64,000 nucleotides of DNA from Vicingus serpentipes (lineage in GTDB: Bacteria > Bacteroidota > Bacteroidia > Flavobacteriales_E > Vicingaceae): contig NZ_VOOS01000001.1 of assembly GCF_007993035.1 (NCBI RefSeq), positions 620,001 through 684,000 on the forward strand, in the 5' to 3' direction. The translations under genes and the position numbers were made by a program. The notes below the pieces were generated by a model. The model made no database searches, had not been told where the DNA came from, and was given only the letters and a program-made list of their open reading frames with translations. How positions within the stretch are numbered: the first letter of the stretch is position 1; each line of letters begins with the position of its first letter. Below, piece by piece: positions 9,377 through 49,891 of the stretch.

Positions 9377-9937
9377 ATGGGACTTATTTCTAAAATATCA
9401 CAATTAACCGACCTTTCTCCTAAAGCTATTGAGTGGTTAGAAAAAAATATTGATCAATTTTCATGTAAAAAGAATGAAATTTTACTACATGAAAGGAAAA
9501 TATGCAATCATTTATACTATCTACAATCGGGGATGTTAACAAGTCATTACTTAATGGATGCTAAAGAAATTTGTAACTGGATAGCTATCGAGGATGATAT
9601 TGCTACTTCTTACTACAGTTTTATCTCTCGTAATCCTTCATATGAAGTTGTAGAGTGTATCGAGGCAGCTATTATTCAATCCATCAGCTATTCCAAAATT
9701 CAGGAAATGTATACTCTTTTCCCTGAAACAGAACGTGTAGGCAGATTAATATTAGAAGAATATTATTCACGATTGGATGAACGTCTAATTTCCATACAAT
9801 TTAAATCTGCTAAAGAAAGATATCGATTGCTTTTTGAAACCCGCCCTGAAATTATTAAAAGAGCGCCATTAGGTCTTATAGCTTCTTATTTGGGTATGAC
9901 TCAGGAAACTTTAAGCAGAGTTCGGGGAGAAATTTAA
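9377..9937 (+). CDS. Crp/Fnr-family transcriptional regulator
   Basis: 186-residue regulator with an N-terminal cyclic-nucleotide-binding-like beta roll (HERKICNHLYYLQSGMLTSHYL), a dimerisation helix and a C-terminal winged helix-turn-helix (APLGLIASYLGMTQETLSRVRGE). No Fnr-type cysteine cluster is visible, so oxygen sensing through Fe-S is unlikely; the effector is unknown. The recognition helix carries E-T-L-S-R, the E-x-x-S-R pattern that in Fnr contacts TTGAT half sites (Crp has E-x-x-G-R). A perfect TTGAT-N4-ATCAA palindrome begins 5 bases after its stop codon and precedes the next gene, so that gene is a likely target. It lies 17 bases behind the AsmA gene. Confidence 0.9.
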   Translation: MGLISKISQLTDLSPKAIEWLEKNIDQFSCKKNEILLHERKICNHLYYLQSGMLTSHYLMDAKEICNWIAIEDDIATSYYSFISRNPSYEVVECIEAAIIQSISYSKIQEMYTLFPETERVGRLILEEYYSRLDERLISIQFKSAKERYRLLFETRPEIIKRAPLGLIASYLGMTQETLSRVRGEI

Positions 9938-9941
9938 TTTT

Positions 9942-9955
9942 TTGATTTATATCAA
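9942..9955. promoter_or_regulatory. Fnr-type operator TTGATTTATATCAA
   Basis: Perfect match to the Fnr consensus TTGAT-N4-ATCAA. Its centre (9948.5) is 36.5 bases upstream of the last G of the -7 element at 9978-9985, so it would sit near -41.5, the class II activator position. There is no -33 element in this promoter, in keeping with activator dependence. The following T-run (9956-9962) means the same sequence could also fold as a weak 5-bp terminator hairpin for the regulator gene. Confidence 0.6.
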
Positions 9956-9977
9956 TTTTTTTCTGTTTACCTCCTTC

Positions 9978-9985
9978 TACTTTTG
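9978..9985 (+). promoter_or_regulatory. -7 element of the lipoprotein gene
   Basis: TACTTTTG is an exact TAnnTTTG match, 38 bases before the ATG at 10023. No TTG lies at the usual -33 distance. The Fnr-type box at 9942-9955 takes that place. Confidence 0.5.
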
Positions 9986-10022: not shown

Positions 10023-10607
10023 ATGAAATCTATTCTTAAAAATTTAATTTATCCTTATGGAATTACGTTAAGTCTTCTTTTTGGCATTTCATTTAATGCT
10101 TGCACTCAAAAAATGAGCGAATCTGTTAATAATGACAAAGCAGCGTTAAATGGTAGTTTTGAAGTAGTAAAAAACAACCTTCCTGTTAACTGGTTGGTTT
10201 ATACTCCAGAAACTGTTAAAAAGGGAAATTTTGACCTTGTTATTGATAGTGATGCTATAGATGGTAAACAATCATTAAAATTCATCATTCGAAGTTGCTC
10301 TGAAAAAGGTGGGTGGTTATCTCCAGGAATATCTCAAGAAATTAAAGTGGAGCCAAACAAAACCTATCATATTAAATGCTGGATAAAAAATAATAATTCT
10401 AAATTCAGAATAAAAGTAGATGCTATAGATGCTTTTACCAAAGATGTTGGACCAACAATTGAATCTTCTGAGACAACTAATAAATGGACATTGCATGAAT
10501 TAACCTACACTATTCCTGAAAAGATGGATAAATTAAGATTAGAAATAAATGCTTTACAACCTGGTACTCTTTGGATTGATCATATTACCATTGAAAAAGA
10601 TCAGTAG
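10023..10607 (+). CDS. Lipoprotein with a carbohydrate-binding-like jelly-roll domain
   Basis: 194-residue lipoprotein. The signal peptide ends in a lipobox-like LLFGISFNAC, with the lipidated Cys at about residue 28. The mature part (NGSFEVVKNNLPVNW ... GTLWIDHITIEKDQ) has the opening N-G-S-F-E and closing L-W-I-D-H-I-T-I of CBM4/9-like jelly rolls, which often bind glycans or serve as adhesion modules. No enzyme domain is present. It is the likely target of the neighbouring Crp/Fnr regulator through the box at 9942-9955. The ligand is unknown. Confidence 0.75.
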   Translation: MKSILKNLIYPYGITLSLLFGISFNACTQKMSESVNNDKAALNGSFEVVKNNLPVNWLVYTPETVKKGNFDLVIDSDAIDGKQSLKFIIRSCSEKGGWLSPGISQEIKVEPNKTYHIKCWIKNNNSKFRIKVDAIDAFTKDVGPTIESSETTNKWTLHELTYTIPEKMDKLRLEINALQPGTLWIDHITIEKDQ

Positions 10608-20497: not shown

Positions 20498-20511
20498 CTG
20501 ATTTTTATCAT
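20498..20511. promoter_or_regulatory. Fnr-type box CTGATTTTTATCAT upstream of the SprB-like gene
   Basis: TGAT-N4-ATCA core at 20499-20510 (8 of 10 positions of the Fnr consensus). Its centre is 36.5 bases upstream of the last base of the -7-like TATTTTTA at 20534-20541. That is the same spacing as at the 9942 box and would place it near -41.5 of the SprB-like gene. Confidence 0.42.
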
Positions 20512-20533
20512 TCCCCCCGTTTTCAAATCTTTA

Positions 20534-20541
20534 TATTTTTA
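20534..20541 (+). promoter_or_regulatory. Weak -7-like element of the SprB-like gene
   Basis: TATTTTTA matches TAnnTTTG except for the last base. It is proposed only because of its exact spacing from the box at 20498-20511; the ATG is 28 bases downstream. Confidence 0.3.
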
Positions 20542-20568: not shown

Positions 20569-23500
20569 ATGTTTAAAAACATTTATATCAAATCGTTTAT
20601 TCTTGCATTTAGCTTTCTTACTTTTAGCCAAACTGCTAAAGCTCAATTAGATTCATGTGATGCTTCTGTACCATATCACTATGTTGATTTAACTGGGCAA
20701 CCTGAAGGAAGTTGGCTATCACCCCCTCACAAAAGAGATGGAAGTTGTTGTGGTGCTGCACCAAACTGTACATCTTTTGAAGTACTTTTAGATTCAAATG
20801 CAGCTGCTTTAAGTTTTCAATTTTATTCTGGTGCCGTACCCACTGGTTCCTTATCTTATCAGATAGATTGCGGACCTAGCGTTGCTGTTGGCGAACCTAT
20901 TTGTATTGCTGGTGTAGGACCTCATCGTATTACTTTTTGTAAACCTGGTAGCAATACCAATGAATATTTAATAACTTCAATTGCAAAACCAACTTTCCCA
21001 CAAGATGATTCAATTAGATCTGGTTGTAGTAAAAAGATAGAGGTCCTTGGATTTGAAGAACCAACGATTACATGGCAATCAGTAGCACCAGGAGCTCCCG
21101 GTGATTATGATAATTTATTAAGTTGTACTAGTAATTGCTCTGAAACAGTTTTTACTCCTACTCCAACTACTCCTGCATTTATTGATTATGTTGTTTGTGG
21201 ATTTCCTCAGGCAGATGAATGTGGTTACACCCTAACATTATGTGATACTTTTAGAATTTATACTGTCGATTCATTGAAAGGAAGTGTTTCACCGAATCCA
21301 GCAACCTTTTGTCAAGTTGGCCCCGGAAGTGGCGTAAATATTAATGCTTCTGGGATTGGTGGTGATGGAACATATAATTATACCTGGTATAATAACTTAG
21401 GAGATTCTGTTGGTTTTGGACCAAGCTTTTACGCTACCAGTCAACAAACTTATTCTATTGAGATAAATGATGGTTTATCTGGACCTTCTTGTGCAGCTAA
21501 CTTTATGAGTGTATCAGTTGTAGAAACTTCAGAGCCAATAGTCGAAGCAGGAGACAATCAGTTATTGTGTGCAGATGTAACAGAGGTTAGTCTGACAGGT
21601 TCAGTTAGTTTTGCTACTGGTGCATATTGGAGTGGTGGAAATGGCGCATACTCTCCTGATTCAACAACTTTAATTACTAATTATTTTCCTACTCCTAGTG
21701 AAATTAATTCTGGCTTGCTGGAGTTATACTTAACTTCTACTGGAGCTGGTGGTTCATGTTCTAACAAAACAGATACAGTTTTAATTACATTCCCTGCTCA
21801 ATTAACTGTTGAATTATCAGATACATTATTAAAATGTAATGATGATCAAGTTCTTTTAAATCCAACCGTTACCGGTGGGGTAACTCCTTATACTTACTTT
21901 TGGAGTAATGGAACCTCTTCTTCAACTACAACTGTAGGAGAAGGTAATTATTGCTTATCCATTTCGGATGATTTAGGTTGTTTTACTGACACGTGTATAA
22001 ATGTAAGTGTGCCAAGTGAATTAACTATAGCTGTTTCGAGTACTGCAGCCACAACAAACGGAGGCAATGATGGAACAGCTACAGCATTGTTATCTGGAGG
22101 AACTTCTCCATATCAATATAACTGGACTCCATCAGGTAGTACTTCTACAATCACAAATTTATCATATGGAATTTATACTGTCACTGCTACAGACACAAAT
22201 GGATGTTCTGTAGATGGAAGTGTAGTTGTAAGCGAACCTAGATGTTTAGGTTTTTCTATATCAACATCATCAGACACTCTCCAATGTTATGGAGATGCTT
22301 CTTCAACTGCATATGTTACTCCAATTGGAGGAACAACCCCCTACACTTATCAATGGGATGATCCGCTAAGTCAAACAGATTCACTAATAACTGGTCTTAG
22401 TTCGGGGTTATACACTATAGTTGTAACAGATGCAAGTAGCTGTTTAGCAGTAACAACAGCTAATATTATTCAGCCAAATCAACTTGTAAATACGATAACA
22501 TCCTCTAACGCTACAACTGTTGGTGGCGCTAACGGCTCTGCTTCTGCACATCCTTTTGGAGGGACACCTCCTTATTCTTTTGCATGGAGTAACTTAGAAA
22601 CTACTCAAACAATATCTAATTTACTAGCAGGAACTTACTACTTAACTATTACAGATGATAACGGATGTTCTATTATTGATAGTGTTAAGATTAATGAGCC
22701 TCCTTGTAATAATTACCTTCTTTATGTTTCTGGAACTGAGTTAAGCTGTAATGGGGTTCTAGATGGTCAAGCTCAAGTTACAGTTGTTGGAGGTACTGAG
22801 CCTTATAATATATTATGGAGTACTGGAGAATCAACAAATACAATTTCTGGATTATCTGCAACTACGTACTCTGTTGAAGTAACAGATTCTAATAATTGTT
22901 ATTCATTTAAAAATATAACTATTACCCAACCTAATATTCTTCAGGCAACTGCTAATCTAGTAAACGATATTAGTTGCTTTGGTATAGTTGATGGAACAGT
23001 TGACCTTATTGTTGCTGGAGGAACATATCCTTATACTTATAGCTGGTCAAATGGTCAATCAAGTGAAGACATTACAAACTTAGCTCAGGGATCTTACAAT
23101 GTAGCTGTTACTGATTTAAATGGATGTACTGCTACTGATAGTATTTCAATTTCTGAGCCAACTAAAATCAATACATCATTTACTAAAATCGATGTAAATT
23201 GTAATAGTGATTCAACTGGAAGTATTAACCTATCGGTAAACGGTGGAGTTATTCCATATAGCTATTTATGGTCAAATGGTGATACGATACAAGATATTAC
23301 AAATTTAACAGCTGGTTTATATAATTTCACTGTTTTTGATGCTAACAACTGTCAATCTCCATTAGGATCTAGTATATTAATATCAGAACCTGACTCTGTT
23401 ACTCTTGATAGCTTTTTCGTAAACTGTCCTATTCCTGGTGGCACAACAACTATGGTTGATTTTTTCCCGAATGGTGGTACATCTGCATACCAAATATCTA

Positions 23501-26500
23501 CAGATAGTGGCACCACATATTTGCCTTTTTTAAATTATAGCGCTCCTTTATCTATTGATAACATTCATCAAATTATGGTGAAAGATACTAATGGTTGTTT
23601 ATCTTCTGGTTTAAACCCTATTACCATTAATCCATTAGTAACTATTGATAGCGTTGCTTTTGAAAAATGCTATACAGATGCTCAAACACTTAGTGCTGTT
23701 GAAGCTTTTATTTCTGGTGGTGATGCTGGCGTTTATCAAGTTTCTTTTGATAATGGGCTTAATTTTGAAACACCAGGAAACTATACCGGCAACTTACCTA
23801 TTAATAACTCTTACTCTTTTGTAGCTCAAGATCAATTAGGATGTCTTTCTGTTCCTTTTAACATTTCAATTCCTGATAGAATACTAGCCAATGCCATTAT
23901 TACTTCTGACTATAATGGTAATGATGTAGCTTGTAATGGAGATACTAACGGAATCGCTTTAGCTCAAGCAAATGGTGGACAAAGTCCATACTCTTACTTG
24001 TGGTCAAATGGGCAAACAGATTCCATTGCTATTAACTTAGGAGCTACTAATTATCAAGTTTATATTACTGACATTAACAACTGTGTTGATACTGCTGATA
24101 TCACGCTTAGCCAACCGACAATTGTAATTCTTGATAGCTTTTTCGTAAACTGTCCTATTCCTGGTGGCACAACAACTATGGTTGATTTTTACCCAAATGG
24201 TGGTACATCTGCATACCAAATATCTACAGATAGTGGTACCACATATTTACCTTTTTTAAATTATAGTGCTTCTTTATCTATTGATAACATTCATCAAATT
24301 ATGGTGAAAGATACTAATGGTTGTTTATCTTCTGGTTTAAACCCTATTACCATTAATCCATTAGTAACTATTGATAGCGTTGCTTTTGAAAAATGCTATA
24401 CAGATGCTCAAACACTTAGTGCTGTTGAAGCTTTTGTTTCTGGTGGTGATGCTGGCGTTTATCAAGTTTCTTTTGATAATGGGCTTAATTTTGAAACACC
24501 AGGAAACTATACCGGCAACTTACCTATTAATAACTCTTACTCTTTTGTAGCTCAAGATCAATTAGGATGTCTTTCAGTTCCTTTTAACATTTCAATTCCT
24601 GATAGAATACTAGCCAATGCCATTATTACTTCTGACTATAATGGTAATGATGTAGCTTGTAATGGAGATACTAACGGAATCGCTTTAGCTCAAGCAAATG
24701 GTGGACAAAGTCCATACTCTTACTTGTGGTCAAATGGGCAAACAGATTCCATTGCTATTAACTTAGGAGCTACTAATTATCAAGTTTATATTACTGACAT
24801 TAACAACTGTGTTGATACTGCTGATATCACGCTTAGCCAACCGACAATTGTAATTCTTGATAGCTTTTTCGTAAACTGTCCTATTCCTGGTGGCACAACA
24901 ACTATGGTTGATTTTTACCCAAATGGTGGTACATCTGCATACCAAATATCTACAGATAGTGGTACCACATATTTACCTTTTTTAAATTATAGTGCTTCTT
25001 TATCTATTGATAACATTCATCAAATTATGGTGAAAGATACTAATGGTTGTTTATCTTCTGGTTTAAACCCTATTACCATTAATCCATTAGTAACTATTGA
25101 TAGCGTTGCTTTTGAAAAATGCTATACAGATGCTCAAACACTTAGTGCTGTTGAAGCTTTTGTTTCTGGTGGTGATGCTGGCGTTTATCAAGTTTCTTTT
25201 GATAATGGGCTTAATTTTGAAACACCAGGAAACTATACCGGCAACTTACCTATTAATAACTCTTACTCTTTTGTAGCTCAAGATCAATTAGGATGTCTTT
25301 CAGTTCCTTTTAACATTTCAATTCCTGATAGAATACTAGCCAATGCCAATATTACTTCTGACTATAATGGTAATGATGTAGCTTGTAATGGAGATACTAA
25401 CGGAATCGCTTTAGCTCAAGCAAATGGTGGACAAAGTCCATACTCTTACTTGTGGTCAAATGGGCAATCAGATTCCATTGCTATTAACTTAGGAGCTACT
25501 AATTATCAAGTTTATATTACTGACATTAACAACTGTGTTGATACTGCTGATATCACGCTTAGCCAACCTGATTCTATTTCTGAAACAATATCTGTATCAT
25601 CTAATTATAATGGTTATGATATCAGTTGTTTTGGTGCTTCTGATGGTAGTATAGATTTAAATGTATTAGGAGGTACATCTCCATATGCCTTTTTATGGAA
25701 TAACTTAGCAGTAACTGAAGATCCTTCAAACCTTTCTTCTGGCTATTATAAAGTTATAATAACTGATATCAATGGATGTAGCGATTCTACAGAAATCACT
25801 TTAAACCAACCTGATTCAATTATATTAACATCAATAATTGATCATGTTAAATGTAATGCATATACAGATGGTTCAATTGACTTAACAGTAACTGGAGGTG
25901 TTTCTCCTTACCAATACAACTGGAGTAATTCTGAAATAACAGAAGATATAACTAATATCGGTCAAGGAAATTATAACATTACCGTTACTGATTTAAATGA
26001 TTGTATAGCTTCAACTTCATATTCAGTTGATGAAGAATCCCCTTTAATTCTTTCGCATACACAAGAAAATATAACCTGTTACAACTTTGCAAATGGTAGC
26101 ATTGATTTATCAGTGAATGGAGGAGTTCTTCCATATATTTATACTTGGAATAATTTATCTCAAGATGAAGATCTTCAAGACTTAACTCCTGGAACTTATT
26201 CAGTATTAGTCACTGATTCTAATAATTGTTTTAAAAATGACACCATATACATAACTCAACCAGATTCATTATGGGCAGATATTAGCAGTGATTTATATCC
26301 CAACGGACATAATATAAGCTTATATCAAATGGCAGATGGATCTATAAACCTTGATGTTTATGGAGGCACATTACCATATCAATTTGAGTGGTCTAATGGT
26401 TCATCAAATGAAGATTTGAATAATTTAATTGCAGGGATGTATTCTGTAATTCTAACGGATAATAATGGCTGTAAATACAATACAGAAATCGTTTTAACTC

Positions 26501-26775
26501 AACCTTTCGAATTAGAAATGCCTACAGTAATTACTCCAAACGGAGATGGCAATAATGATTATTTTGTAGTTCATGGAATTGAATCTTTTCCTTCAAATTC
26601 AATTATTATTTTTAATAGATGGGGAGATGAAGTATACAATATGACTAACTATGATAATAAATGGCAAGGGCAATCTAATAAAGGAAATGATTTACCTGCA
26701 GGTAATTATTTCATCATATTAAAAATAGACAATCAAGATATTACCTTAACAGGTTATGTTGAAATTTTAAGGTAA
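20569..26775 (+). CDS. SprB-like giant repetitive surface protein with T9SS type B sorting domain
   Basis: 2068-residue exported protein. Signal peptide (cleaved near KAQ, residue 25), a Cys-rich N-terminal region (to about 420), then about 20 modules of roughly 75-82 residues. Most show the SprB-repeat pattern C-x-G-x-x-D-G ... GG-T-x-P-Y-x-Y-x-W-S-N-G ... G-x-Y-x-V-x-V-T-D-x-N-G-C, with one Cys near each end of a module. Residues 946 to about 1667 are three nearly identical 242-residue blocks. The last 85 residues (from 1984, VITPNGDGNNDYF ... NRWGDEVY) are the gliding-motility-associated CHU_C/type B sorting domain. SprB-type proteins are mobile surface adhesins for gliding or attachment. 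A PorP/SprF gene follows at 25 bases, the usual pairing. Confidence 0.92.
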   Translation: MFKNIYIKSFILAFSFLTFSQTAKAQLDSCDASVPYHYVDLTGQPEGSWLSPPHKRDGSCCGAAPNCTSFEVLLDSNAAALSFQFYSGAVPTGSLSYQIDCGPSVAVGEPICIAGVGPHRITFCKPGSNTNEYLITSIAKPTFPQDDSIRSGCSKKIEVLGFEEPTITWQSVAPGAPGDYDNLLSCTSNCSETVFTPTPTTPAFIDYVVCGFPQADECGYTLTLCDTFRIYTVDSLKGSVSPNPATFCQVGPGSGVNINASGIGGDGTYNYTWYNNLGDSVGFGPSFYATSQQTYSIEINDGLSGPSCAANFMSVSVVETSEPIVEAGDNQLLCADVTEVSLTGSVSFATGAYWSGGNGAYSPDSTTLITNYFPTPSEINSGLLELYLTSTGAGGSCSNKTDTVLITFPAQLTVELSDTLLKCNDDQVLLNPTVTGGVTPYTYFWSNGTSSSTTTVGEGNYCLSISDDLGCFTDTCINVSVPSELTIAVSSTAATTNGGNDGTATALLSGGTSPYQYNWTPSGSTSTITNLSYGIYTVTATDTNGCSVDGSVVVSEPRCLGFSISTSSDTLQCYGDASSTAYVTPIGGTTPYTYQWDDPLSQTDSLITGLSSGLYTIVVTDASSCLAVTTANIIQPNQLVNTITSSNATTVGGANGSASAHPFGGTPPYSFAWSNLETTQTISNLLAGTYYLTITDDNGCSIIDSVKINEPPCNNYLLYVSGTELSCNGVLDGQAQVTVVGGTEPYNILWSTGESTNTISGLSATTYSVEVTDSNNCYSFKNITITQPNILQATANLVNDISCFGIVDGTVDLIVAGGTYPYTYSWSNGQSSEDITNLAQGSYNVAVTDLNGCTATDSISISEPTKINTSFTKIDVNCNSDSTGSINLSVNGGVIPYSYLWSNGDTIQDITNLTAGLYNFTVFDANNCQSPLGSSILISEPDSVTLDSFFVNCPIPGGTTTMVDFFPNGGTSAYQISTDSGTTYLPFLNYSAPLSIDNIHQIMVKDTNGCLSSGLNPITINPLVTIDSVAFEKCYTDAQTLSAVEAFISGGDAGVYQVSFDNGLNFETPGNYTGNLPINNSYSFVAQDQLGCLSVPFNISIPDRILANAIITSDYNGNDVACNGDTNGIALAQANGGQSPYSYLWSNGQTDSIAINLGATNYQVYITDINNCVDTADITLSQPTIVILDSFFVNCPIPGGTTTMVDFYPNGGTSAYQISTDSGTTYLPFLNYSASLSIDNIHQIMVKDTNGCLSSGLNPITINPLVTIDSVAFEKCYTDAQTLSAVEAFVSGGDAGVYQVSFDNGLNFETPGNYTGNLPINNSYSFVAQDQLGCLSVPFNISIPDRILANAIITSDYNGNDVACNGDTNGIALAQANGGQSPYSYLWSNGQTDSIAINLGATNYQVYITDINNCVDTADITLSQPTIVILDSFFVNCPIPGGTTTMVDFYPNGGTSAYQISTDSGTTYLPFLNYSASLSIDNIHQIMVKDTNGCLSSGLNPITINPLVTIDSVAFEKCYTDAQTLSAVEAFVSGGDAGVYQVSFDNGLNFETPGNYTGNLPINNSYSFVAQDQLGCLSVPFNISIPDRILANANITSDYNGNDVACNGDTNGIALAQANGGQSPYSYLWSNGQSDSIAINLGATNYQVYITDINNCVDTADITLSQPDSISETISVSSNYNGYDISCFGASDGSIDLNVLGGTSPYAFLWNNLAVTEDPSNLSSGYYKVIITDINGCSDSTEITLNQPDSIILTSIIDHVKCNAYTDGSIDLTVTGGVSPYQYNWSNSEITEDITNIGQGNYNITVTDLNDCIASTSYSVDEESPLILSHTQENITCYNFANGSIDLSVNGGVLPYIYTWNNLSQDEDLQDLTPGTYSVLVTDSNNCFKNDTIYITQPDSLWADISSDLYPNGHNISLYQMADGSINLDVYGGTLPYQFEWSNGSSNEDLNNLIAGMYSVILTDNNGCKYNTEIVLTQPFELEMPTVITPNGDGNNDYFVVHGIESFPSNSIIIFNRWGDEVYNMTNYDNKWQGQSNKGNDLPAGNYFIILKIDNQDITLTGYVEILR
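23404..24129 (+). repeat. 726-bp coding repeat, unit 1
   Basis: First of three direct tandem units, 242 codons, made of three beta-sandwich modules of about 80 residues (starting LDSFFVNCPIPGG, TIDSVAFEKCYTDA and LANAIITSDYNGND). It differs from unit 2 at about 8 bases by eye. Confidence 0.93.
24130..24855 (+). repeat. 726-bp coding repeat, unit 2
   Basis: Second tandem unit, in frame. It differs from unit 3 at only about 2 bases by eye (Ile to Asn and Thr to Ser changes), so the duplication or gene conversion is recent. Confidence 0.93.
24856..25568 (+). repeat. 726-bp coding repeat, unit 3 (about 713 bp conserved)
   Basis: Third tandem unit. Identity to unit 2 ends at the LSQP codons around 25568, after which ordinary SprB-type modules continue. 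Confidence 0.92.
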
Positions 26776-26800
26776 TTACTTAATTTAAAAAAATCATACA

Positions 26801-27715
26801 ATGAAAAAACTATTTATAATAATCACTATTATTTTTTGCTCAAAAGAAGCTTTTTCTCAGCAAGATTTAATGGTTTCTCAATACATGTTTAACCATACAT
26901 TTTTAAATCCAGGAGCAATTGCCAATAAAGGGTATTATAATGCAAGCTTAATGTATCGTAAACAATGGGTTCAATTTGAAGGTGCTCCAGAATCTCAATT
27001 TTTATCTATAGACGGGCCTGTTATTTCTGACAAAATGGGATTGGGTTTATTAATCCAAAGAGACCAAATAGGTGTGAATACTCAGACTGATATTATGGGG
27101 GGATATTCATATATAATTGATATGAAAAAAATCAAATTGTCTATGGGACTTAGAGCTGGATTTAGTGTTTTTCAAGCTAATTACACATCTCATAAAGCAT
27201 GGGATACAGAGGATAATTTATTAGCACAAGACGTTGTTAGTTATTTACCAAATTTTGGTTTTGGAGCCTATGCTTCGCACGAAAAATACTTTGCAGGTAT
27301 ATCTATTCCTCACTTTTTAAATTTTGACCCAAACTCATCAATTTCTGTAGATATTAAAAATTCTAATCAAGCTGTTCGCCATTATTATTTAATGGGAGGG
27401 TACAACTTTACTCTAAATGAAAATTTCGTGTTACAACCTAACACTTTAATAAAACATTCAGAAAAAGCACCTACTCAATTAGATTTAAATATGCTTGTTG
27501 AATTTAAAAAGAAGTACTCTTTAGGAATAGGATATAGAACTGGTGATAGTTTTATAATACTCTCTAAAATTGAGCTTATGGATAAATTTCAATTCGGATA
27601 TTCATTCGATGTTACAATGACTGATATAAGAGATTACTCAAAAGGCTCACATGAAATTATGTTGAACTATGCTTTTGGAAAAAAAGAAAAAACTTCTGCA
27701 GCAAGTTTTAATTAA
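26801..27715 (+). CDS. PorP/SprF family type IX secretion outer-membrane protein
   Basis: 304-residue outer-membrane protein: signal peptide (MKKLFIIITIIFCSKEAFSQ), then the PorP/SprF opening DLMVSQYMFNHTFLNPGAIA and MYRKQWVQFEGAPESQ, followed by beta-barrel strands and a C-terminal basic tail. SprF-type proteins are needed for export or surface attachment of their cognate SprB-like T9SS type B cargo. The gene lies 25 bases behind the giant SprB-like gene, so it is almost certainly the dedicated partner and in the same operon. Confidence 0.93.
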   Translation: MKKLFIIITIIFCSKEAFSQQDLMVSQYMFNHTFLNPGAIANKGYYNASLMYRKQWVQFEGAPESQFLSIDGPVISDKMGLGLLIQRDQIGVNTQTDIMGGYSYIIDMKKIKLSMGLRAGFSVFQANYTSHKAWDTEDNLLAQDVVSYLPNFGFGAYASHEKYFAGISIPHFLNFDPNSSISVDIKNSNQAVRHYYLMGGYNFTLNENFVLQPNTLIKHSEKAPTQLDLNMLVEFKKKYSLGIGYRTGDSFIILSKIELMDKFQFGYSFDVTMTDIRDYSKGSHEIMLNYAFGKKEKTSAASFN

Positions 27716-47716: not shown

Positions 47717-48334
47717 ATGTTAATTAGCATCTACCCCGATAATCCTGATGAGCGTAAAATAGCTCAAGTTGTAAAAACGTTGAAAAAAGGTGGAATAATT
47801 ATTTATCCTACCGATACGGTCTACAGTATGGCATGCGATTTAAACAATCGTAAAGCTGTAGAACGTATGGCTCAATTAAAAGGGATAAAAGTAGAAAAAG
47901 CTAACTTCTCATTAATCTGTTTCGATTTAAGCCATATTTCAGATTTTACAGTTCAATTTAGTAATGCTACTTACAAATTAATGAAAAGAGCATTACCTGG
48001 CCCTTACACTTTTATTTTAAATGCCAACACTAGCGTGCCTAAGCTCTTTAAATCCAACAAAAAAACAATTGGAATAAGAATACCAGACAACAATATAGCA
48101 AGAGCTCTAGTAAAAGAATTAGGTAATCCTTTAATTTCTACTTCGGTGCATGATGACGATGAAATATTAGAATACATTACCAATCCTGAACTAATTTACG
48201 AAAAATACGAAAAGCTTGTAGATATAGTTATTGATGGCGGTTTTGGTAAAAATGATGCTTCTACCGTTATCGATTGTACGCATGATGAACCAGAAGTTAT
48301 AAGAGAAGGAGTTGGAAGTATAGATATCATTTAG
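47717..48334 (+). CDS. L-threonylcarbamoyladenylate synthase (Sua5/YciO/YrdC family)
   Basis: 205-residue YrdC-fold protein. The nucleotide and threonine pocket is seen as GGIIIYPTDTVYSMACD, PGPYTFILNA, KKTIGIRIPDN and STSVHDDDE. YrdC/TsaC makes threonylcarbamoyl-AMP for the t6A37 modification of tRNA. The STSVHDDDEI variant and short length look more like the YciO branch, whose role is less clear, so the exact activity is uncertain. It is co-transcribed with the transaldolase gene (6-base gap). Confidence 0.87.
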   Translation: MLISIYPDNPDERKIAQVVKTLKKGGIIIYPTDTVYSMACDLNNRKAVERMAQLKGIKVEKANFSLICFDLSHISDFTVQFSNATYKLMKRALPGPYTFILNANTSVPKLFKSNKKTIGIRIPDNNIARALVKELGNPLISTSVHDDDEILEYITNPELIYEKYEKLVDIVIDGGFGKNDASTVIDCTHDEPEVIREGVGSIDII

Positions 48335-48383: not shown

Positions 48384-48397
48384 CTGATATAAATCAT
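48384..48397. promoter_or_regulatory. Fnr-type box CTGATATAAATCAT upstream of a T9SS cargo gene
   Basis: TGAT-N4-ATCA core at 48385-48396. The centre is 36.5 bases upstream of the last G of TAAAATTG (48420-48427), the same spacing as at 9942 and 20498. The flanking C and T are identical to those of the 20498 box. Confidence 0.45.
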
Positions 48398-48419
48398 TGT
48401 TTTTCATTTTGTAAAGGCT

Positions 48420-48427
48420 TAAAATTG
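48420..48427 (+). promoter_or_regulatory. Weak -7-like element of the T9SS cargo gene
   Basis: TAAAATTG differs from TAnnTTTG at one fixed base. It is proposed mainly because of its spacing from the Fnr-type box; the ATG is 25 bases downstream. Confidence 0.3.
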
Positions 48428-48451
48428 TAATGAACTTTAAACTACACAATT

Positions 48452-49831
48452 ATGAAAAAAACATTACTTTCTTTAACATTATTATTAACCGGATATTGTG
48501 GCTTTGCTCAATATGAAGGTTTTGAAAATTGGACTCAAGGCAGTGTATTAGTACTAGACCAATACGAAACACCTGCCAATGAATTAGGTGCTCTTGGTAA
48601 TTTAGCTATTCAACAAAGTACAGATGCTGTTGACGGAACATACTCTGTAAGATTAGAAACTGTAACTATCCCATCAGGTGACACTGTTTTTGGCTACATC
48701 TTAAGTGGTGACCCCGACGCTCTAGCTCCAGGACAACCTGTAACAATTGGAGGTGTTGATAGTATAATTGGGTATTGGAAATACGATGTAATGCCTGGTG
48801 ATTCATGTGCTCTTTTATTAGCTGCTTCTCAAACTGGTTTTGGGTTAACAGGAGGAGGGACATATTATGTAACTGGCACACAAAGTTCATGGAAAAGATT
48901 TGCTTATGAGGTGAATGCAATTATGGCTGATTCAATTTTGTTAGCTTTTGCAACAGGTGATCCATTAAATGAATTTAATGGTATCCCAGGAACATGGATG
49001 ATGATTGATAATGTAAAACTTAAAAATTCTACAGGTCAATTACAAGATGTTTACAATCAAAGTTTTGAAAACTGGACTACTGTTACTTGGGATAATCCAG
49101 ATGGATGGTTTACTTCAAATGAATATGCTGTTGGTCAAACTCCAATGCCAGCAGAAAAATCTACTGATGCTTACTCTGGAACATATGCATTAGAATTAAA
49201 CACTATAAACTCTCAGTGGGGTGATACAATGAGTGGGTTAGCAACTAATGGATCTTTTAATGAATTTGGTATGTTTGGTGGAGTACCTTACACATCTCAA
49301 CCTACAGCTGTAAATGTATATTATAAATATGCTCCGGTAGCAAATGATTCTGGTTGGGTAAATATTCAATTTAAAAATGGAGGTAGTGTTATCGCTCAAG
49401 CTGGTGCTTTAGTTGGTGCTCAAGCAAACTATACTATGCTTAGCTCACTACTTAGCTTTCCAATGGCTCCAGATACATTTTTAATTGCAGCAGGATCTGG
49501 TGAAATTCCAGGAAGTCAATTATTAATTGACCATATAGACATGACTTTCCCTGTTGGCATTAATGAAAACATTAAAATTGACAGATTAGAAAGTTATCCT
49601 AACCCTACAACGGATATTTTAAATTTAAGATTTGAATTAAAAAATAGCAATTTAGTAAGTGTAAACTTATTAGATATTACAGGAAAAGTTTTAAAGAATA
49701 AGTCATTCGGAAATCTTTCTTCTGGAACTTATAACGAATCGTTTAATACTTCTTCATTTACATCAGGTATTTACTTTATTGAATTTACTGTTGGTAATGA
49801 AAAAATAGTAAATCGTTTTATTGTAAAATAA
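48452..49831 (+). CDS. T9SS-exported protein with two jelly-roll (PCMD-like) domains
   Basis: 459-residue secreted protein: signal peptide (MKKTLLSLTLLLTGYCGFAQ), two similar beta-sandwich domains, each opening with a F-E-N-W-T motif (YEGFENWTQG and NQSFENWTTV) and closing with a LLIDH/MMIDNV-type strand, then a T9SS type A sorting domain (ESYPNPTTDILNLRF ... NRFIVK). The domains resemble PCMD/carbohydrate-binding modules; no catalytic motif is seen. It is preceded by an Fnr-type box and followed by a strong terminator, so it is a single transcription unit. Confidence 0.85.
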   Translation: MKKTLLSLTLLLTGYCGFAQYEGFENWTQGSVLVLDQYETPANELGALGNLAIQQSTDAVDGTYSVRLETVTIPSGDTVFGYILSGDPDALAPGQPVTIGGVDSIIGYWKYDVMPGDSCALLLAASQTGFGLTGGGTYYVTGTQSSWKRFAYEVNAIMADSILLAFATGDPLNEFNGIPGTWMMIDNVKLKNSTGQLQDVYNQSFENWTTVTWDNPDGWFTSNEYAVGQTPMPAEKSTDAYSGTYALELNTINSQWGDTMSGLATNGSFNEFGMFGGVPYTSQPTAVNVYYKYAPVANDSGWVNIQFKNGGSVIAQAGALVGAQANYTMLSSLLSFPMAPDTFLIAAGSGEIPGSQLLIDHIDMTFPVGINENIKIDRLESYPNPTTDILNLRFELKNSNLVSVNLLDITGKVLKNKSFGNLSSGTYNESFNTSSFTSGIYFIEFTVGNEKIVNRFIVK

Positions 49832-49854
49832 TAAACCTACTACATTAAGAAATG

Positions 49855-49891
49855 ATAAAGGTTGGTATTTAATACCAACCTTTATTTTTTT
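49855..49891 (+). terminator. Rho-independent terminator after the T9SS cargo gene
   Basis: Perfect 14-bp inverted repeat (arms 49855-49868 and 49872-49885, core AAAGGTTGGTAT / ATACCAACCTTT) with a 3-base loop TTA, directly followed by a T-run. It separates the cargo gene from the ion-channel gene. Confidence 0.9.

Follow-up and report, generated by a model that had tools for sequence, protein, structure and literature searches.

The closest described relatives of the promoter analysed here are the class II promoters of FNR in enteric bacteria and Aliivibrio, in which the box TTGAT-N4-ATCAA is centred at -41.5, the place from which FNR and CRP act in class II activation. We examined a stretch of 64,000 nucleotides of the Vicingus serpentipes genome (the window), and found before one of its genes a box that resembles this arrangement in its TGAT-N4-ATCA core and in its predicted -41.5 centre. 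The likeness extends to the candidate regulator, P0004, which has the four cysteines and the recognition-helix Glu and Arg of FNR, and to the predicted targets, among them genes for Usp proteins, terminal oxidases and the uptake of ferrous iron. The differences are that the downstream element is the Bacteroidota TAnnTTTG and not TATAAT, that the core is flanked in 89 pooled sites by A/C before and T (71%) after, and that P0004 has the cysteine arrangement C-x2-C-x8-C and carries Ile200 in place of the Ser212 of E. coli FNR. The ANR, FixK and FnrL regulons of Pseudomonas and Alphaproteobacteria are likewise similar in the linkage of the regulator gene to cbb3 oxidase genes and in their Usp, cbb3 and denitrification targets, whereas phylum and core promoter are different here, and T9SS cargo is found among the targets. 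The sigma-A promoters mapped in Flavobacterium (PMC9723704), in the main text of which FNR and CRP go unmentioned, share with our locus the -7 element TAnnTTTG and its distance to the transcription start. A search of the Bacteroidota literature, mainly of non-subscription papers, found no account of a box with the N23 spacing described below, and we claim no priority. The system is of the known FNR kind, and departs from it slightly, in ways particular to this family, in the spacing of the cysteines, the flank of the box and the core promoter.

The box and its distance to the -7 element

The gene at 48452-49831 (forward strand, as are all features of the window described here) begins with an ATG at 48452 and is preceded by the FNR-type box CTGATATAAATCAT at 48384-48397, to which the sequence, the spacing statistics and an orthologue footprint all point. 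Its core TGATATAAATCA (48385-48396, centre 48390.5) contains the dyad TGAT-N4-ATCA of class II FNR/CRP promoters and is separated by N23 from the -7 element TAAAATTG at 48420-48427, which fits the TAnnTTTG of Bacteroidota sigma-A promoters with one mismatch, the distance from box centre to -7 end being exactly 36.5. Since start-site mapping in F. psychrophilum places TAnnTTTG at -12 to -5 (PMC9723704), transcription is predicted to start at 48432 with a 5' UTR of 20 bases (leaders in F. psychrophilum have a median length of 24 bases; PMC9723704), and the centre of the dyad would, given the N23 spacing, fall at about -41.5. We take this palindrome to be, very probably, a true binding site of an FNR-type, probably oxygen-sensing, activator.

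The same arrangement occurs twice more in the window, as TGATTTATATCA-N23-TACTTTTG at 9943-9985 (box 9943-9954, -7 ending at 9985), preceding a CBM_4_9 lipoprotein-like gene (10023-10607), and as TGATTTTTATCA-N23-TATTTTTA at 20499-20541 (box 20499-20510, -7 ending at 20541), preceding a SprB-repeat T9SS type B gene (20569-26775). An earlier note on this DNA, which had described a box before the 48452 gene and three boxes with one fixed spacing of 36.5 from centre to -7 end, was thus correct on both counts. The sole detectable homologue of the 10023 gene in the relatives (G003, 42%) lacks the box. A homologue of the 20569 gene in G031 (L153, 70% over the N-terminal region) is preceded by a perfect TGATATAAATCA-N23-TAGTTTTG, the one exception, since no box with a matching -7 at N23 was found before the paralogues and other homologues of this SprB-type protein (L206-L214, L219). 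The 2068-aa SprB-repeat protein itself contains long near-identical internal repeats and is followed by a PorP/SprF gene, the two together occupying 20569-27715. A separate feature of the window is a cNMP-domain protein of 186 aa (9377-9937) in which no HTH domain is detectable; it ends 6 bases before the 9943 box and recalls the HTH-less crpR1 of Riemerella (PMC13277301).

The bare core is only slightly over-represented, with 7 occurrences in the window where shuffles give 2.1, and 116 in the whole genome against 90 in the reversed control, and its enrichment was dropped as evidence because it is too weak. It is the spacing that carries the signal. Over 60 related genomes, which span 32 genera and include close kin, so that the counts are partly dependent, TGAT-N4-ATCA lies 22-24 bases 5' of a consensus TAnnTTTG in 167 cases against 9 in the reversed control. 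In 150 sites among the matches listed from these relatives, the distance between exact box and exact TAnnTTTG forms a single spike at N23 (46 sites), flanked by smaller excesses at N24 (18) and N22 (10) above a background of 3.8 per spacing. The Vicingus genome itself was examined by pattern searches and by inspecting the sequence around sites. Here the box combined with an exact TAnnTTTG at any spacing from 15 to 30 gave 6 matches, four of them at N23 and one at N22; the four exact N23 combinations compare with about 0.17 expected, and allowing at most one mismatch over the entire motif at N23 gave 17 matches against 5 in the reversed control. The 48385 site belongs to a weaker class, because its -7 element is mismatched and an exact box at N23 from a -7 with at most one mismatch was observed 9 times, with about 2.7 expected by chance; judged alone, without its orthologues, it is reasonably credible and no better. 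Conservation in orthologues therefore matters, and it raises that credibility. Three of these nine sites (9943, 20499 and 48385) lie inside the window, which makes up 2.2% of the genome, a clustering with a binomial p of about 8e-4 if the window is taken as random.

The regulator and the orthologous promoters

P0004 is the sole HTH_Crp_2 protein of the genome, no such domain being detectable in the remaining cNMP-domain proteins. Its gene (G000:C1:477727-478434, reverse strand) lies outside the window in a cbb3 oxidase cluster, with a Usp gene nearby, ccoI divergent, and, beyond these, ccoN, ccoP, ccoG and ccoH (the cco genes were named by reading the sequence). The protein matches PF00027 (cNMP-like sensor, 3e-24) and PF13545 (HTH_Crp_2, 1e-17), and scores 1e-34 and 120 bits against the NCBIfam Fnr model NF008365, under the curated cut-off of 228, which is an annotation threshold and not a biochemical defining feature; we accordingly write 'FNR-type' and not 'Fnr'. 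Three of its cysteines are N-terminal (Cys10, Cys13, Cys22) and one is central (Cys112). On alignment to FNR structures two of the N-terminal cysteines and the central one match those of Aliivibrio FNR, and the third is displaced by three residues. Cys10, Cys13 and Cys112 are kept in every orthologue where the alignment covers them, down to about 41% identity, and Cys22 in nearly all, with Lys in two (L113, L118). The recognition helix TATESVIR retains Glu197 and Arg201, and the changed flank of the box may be linked to Ile200. The FNR-type regulators of these Flavobacteriales (as at L222:7727-8434) show the C-x2-C-x8-C spacing, against C-x2-C-x5-C in the enteric proteins, and an Ile at the position of E. 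coli Ser212, beside this changed flank. Genomes with an FNR-type orthologue contain on average 3.66 spaced sites, those without 1.56 (Mann-Whitney p = 4e-4, kinship ignored).

Syntenic orthologues of the 48452 gene are marked by a conserved upstream neighbour, the Sua5/YrdC gene (47717-48334), the end of which is visible upstream of them. Behind it, another species of the same genus (G001) has a perfect box in TGATTTTTATCA-N23-TAACTTTA, and one box mismatch is found both in G031 (TGACATAAATCA-N23-TACATTTA) and in a Vicingus MAG (L040, TGAGTAAAATCA-N23-TATAATTG), the proteins of these box-bearing orthologues being 46-56% identical. In three of eight orthologues box and -7 together depart from the motif at no more than two positions, for which dinucleotide shuffles give a mean of 0.014 (p <= 3.3e-4). 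The -7 elements beside these boxes are imperfect and a perfect TATTTTTG is seen in two orthologues that have no box, which, in small numbers, is as expected if an activator were to compensate for a poor -7.

Regulation of the 48452 gene through the box would not be universal across orthologues, because three of them (L038/G015, L039 and L041/G034) have no box, the box of G002/L042 contains two mismatches and G024 has just a half-site. Box and regulator also coincide imperfectly across genomes, since G034 possesses the regulator and lacks the box at its orthologue, while G031 and G024 have box-like sequences, yet just distant CRP-family proteins in frames of 356-371 aa. These two genomes, without a close FNR-type orthologue, keep some spaced boxes, and the 356-371-aa CRP-domain proteins may be the regulators there.

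The target protein and the predicted mode of control

The 48452 gene encodes a 459-aa T9SS type A cargo protein (P0001), in which two predicted jelly-roll beta-sandwich domains are followed by a sorting domain at the C-terminus (382-459). The earlier assignment as T9SS cargo is borne out by a Por_Secre_tail match, and the AlphaFold model (mean pLDDT 85) comprises two beta-sandwich domains and the sorting domain. Foldseek returned binding proteins built of tandem jelly-rolls (reelin repeats, a CBM22 tandem and a glycan-binding surface protein of Bacteroides) with low whole-chain TM-scores, and a PDB sequence search matched the sorting domain alone. These fold matches support the jelly-roll fold class but indicate no ligand; the two domains are probably glycan-binding or adhesive. 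Because an intrinsic terminator hairpin of 15 pairs with a T tail (49854-49886) lies directly 3', the gene forms a single-gene unit.

We think it likely that this unit is activated in the class II manner by P0004 on oxygen limitation; the motif, its spacing, its conservation in orthologues and the FNR-like cysteines of the regulator are observed and the regulon content is predicted, while binding, the iron-sulphur cluster, the oxygen signal, activation over repression and the protein's function are what we infer in this scheme. At low oxygen cluster-loaded P0004 would dimerise and bind TGATATAAATCA centred at -41.5, where it could interact with RNA polymerase in complex with the Bacteroidota sigma-A that reads the imperfect -7 TAAAATTG; transcription would then run from about 48432 to the hairpin, and the resulting single-gene message would yield a T9SS-exported protein with two jelly-roll domains. 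Oxygen would destroy the cluster, and DNA binding would probably be lost.

Two other readings question the polarity or the reality of this control. P0004 could instead act as a repressor whose operator overlaps the -33 region, and the box does directly abut that region, with a TTG at 48398-48400, 19 bases 5' of the -7; but -41.5 is the classical position of class II activation, and the distribution of perfect and imperfect -7 elements among the orthologues, in small numbers, also speaks for an activator, so that repression appears unlikely. That the box is a chance palindrome in a genome of 68% AT, coincidentally spaced, and the gene has an ordinary constitutive promoter, is suggested by the weak enrichment of the bare core, by the roughly 2.7 sites of equal quality expected in the genome and by the three box-less orthologues; against it stand the perfect or near-perfect boxes at N23 before syntenic orthologues as divergent as those above, and we regard coincidence as very unlikely.

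Content of the predicted regulon

The earlier note had judged a coherent cell-surface regulon plausible from the three boxes, which we take as one dedicated to T9SS and jelly-roll proteins under a specialised regulator. Its observations stand: all three window targets are exported, and two carry jelly-roll domains (a CBM_4_9 in 10023-10607 and the predicted tandem beta-sandwiches of 48452-49831). The clustering of three of the nine best sites of the genome in the window, and the presence of boxes before both SprB-type and 48452 genes in relatives, also favour it. The wider conclusion fails the test that the note itself had named, in a genome- and family-wide motif search with the spacing imposed. 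For the Vicingus genome we listed the genes behind promoter-like N22 or N23 sites that deviate from the motif at no more than one position (at two in the case of one Usp gene). They comprise feoAB, at the promoter of which the 16-mer CTGATATAAATCATTG of the 48384 site is found identical, Usp genes, a CBS protein, a class I fumarase and a tryptophanase/tyrosine phenol-lyase (names partly from sequence reading), together with an exosortase (XrtX), an RND adaptor, an antiporter, an outer-membrane protein and the three window genes. The genes behind 82 sites in relatives include ccoN, feoA/B, Usp, a NorC-type cytochrome, MFS transporters of the nitrate/nitrite type, ferredoxins, 2-oxoacid:ferredoxin oxidoreductase, cytochrome c and acetyl-CoA hydrolase. 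By a crude hydropathy rule, which over-calls a few in both sets, exported proteins make up 20 of 71 family-wide targets (28%) and 18 of 54 window genes (33%; one-sided Fisher p = 0.79), and about 5 of 14 own-genome targets (p = 0.55), showing no enrichment over background. As the targets belong mostly to low-oxygen metabolism and exported proteins are not enriched among them, and as the genome has a single HTH_Crp_2 regulator, a dedicated cell-surface regulon is highly improbable; the best explanation is that the 48452 gene would sit at the periphery of an ordinary microaerobic/anaerobic regulon, as predicted from its promoter.

The same content bears on the identity of the signal. The TGA core is common to CRP-family boxes, and a CRP/FNR homologue of a Flavobacteriales MAG has been predicted to be a MalR-like carbon sensor (PMC8510549), so that the binder could be a CRP/MalR-like or other CRP-family protein responding to carbon or another signal rather than oxygen. 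This we consider quite unlikely, since the FNR-position cysteines of P0004 are conserved across the family, the regulon is one of low-oxygen metabolism, and the other cNMP-domain proteins of the genome lack a detectable HTH_Crp_2.

Because the distance from box to TAnnTTTG is fixed within a base across dozens of genomes, TGAT-N4-ATCA-N22..24-TAnnTTTG offers a simple rule by which the low-oxygen regulon might be read in environmental Flavobacteriales, an order in which few transcription-factor sites can be placed from sequence alone, and it questions the carbon-sensing assignment of such a regulator in PMC8510549. Through the predicted sites at least two surface proteins exported by T9SS would be tied to the supply of oxygen. 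It seems an even matter whether, more generally, a Flavobacteriales FNR-type oxygen sensor with its own cysteine spacing and half-site flank, acting as a class II activator on TAnnTTTG, has in some lineages recruited T9SS surface proteins of the jelly-roll and SprB-repeat types; if so, cells would alter their surface or adhesion as oxygen runs low. Among the sites in relatives, one locus (L142, L143; G032:C300) has two divergent FNR-type sites 10 bases apart, facing a 2-oxoacid:ferredoxin oxidoreductase on one side and a ferredoxin gene on the other, and the same arrangement is seen in G025.
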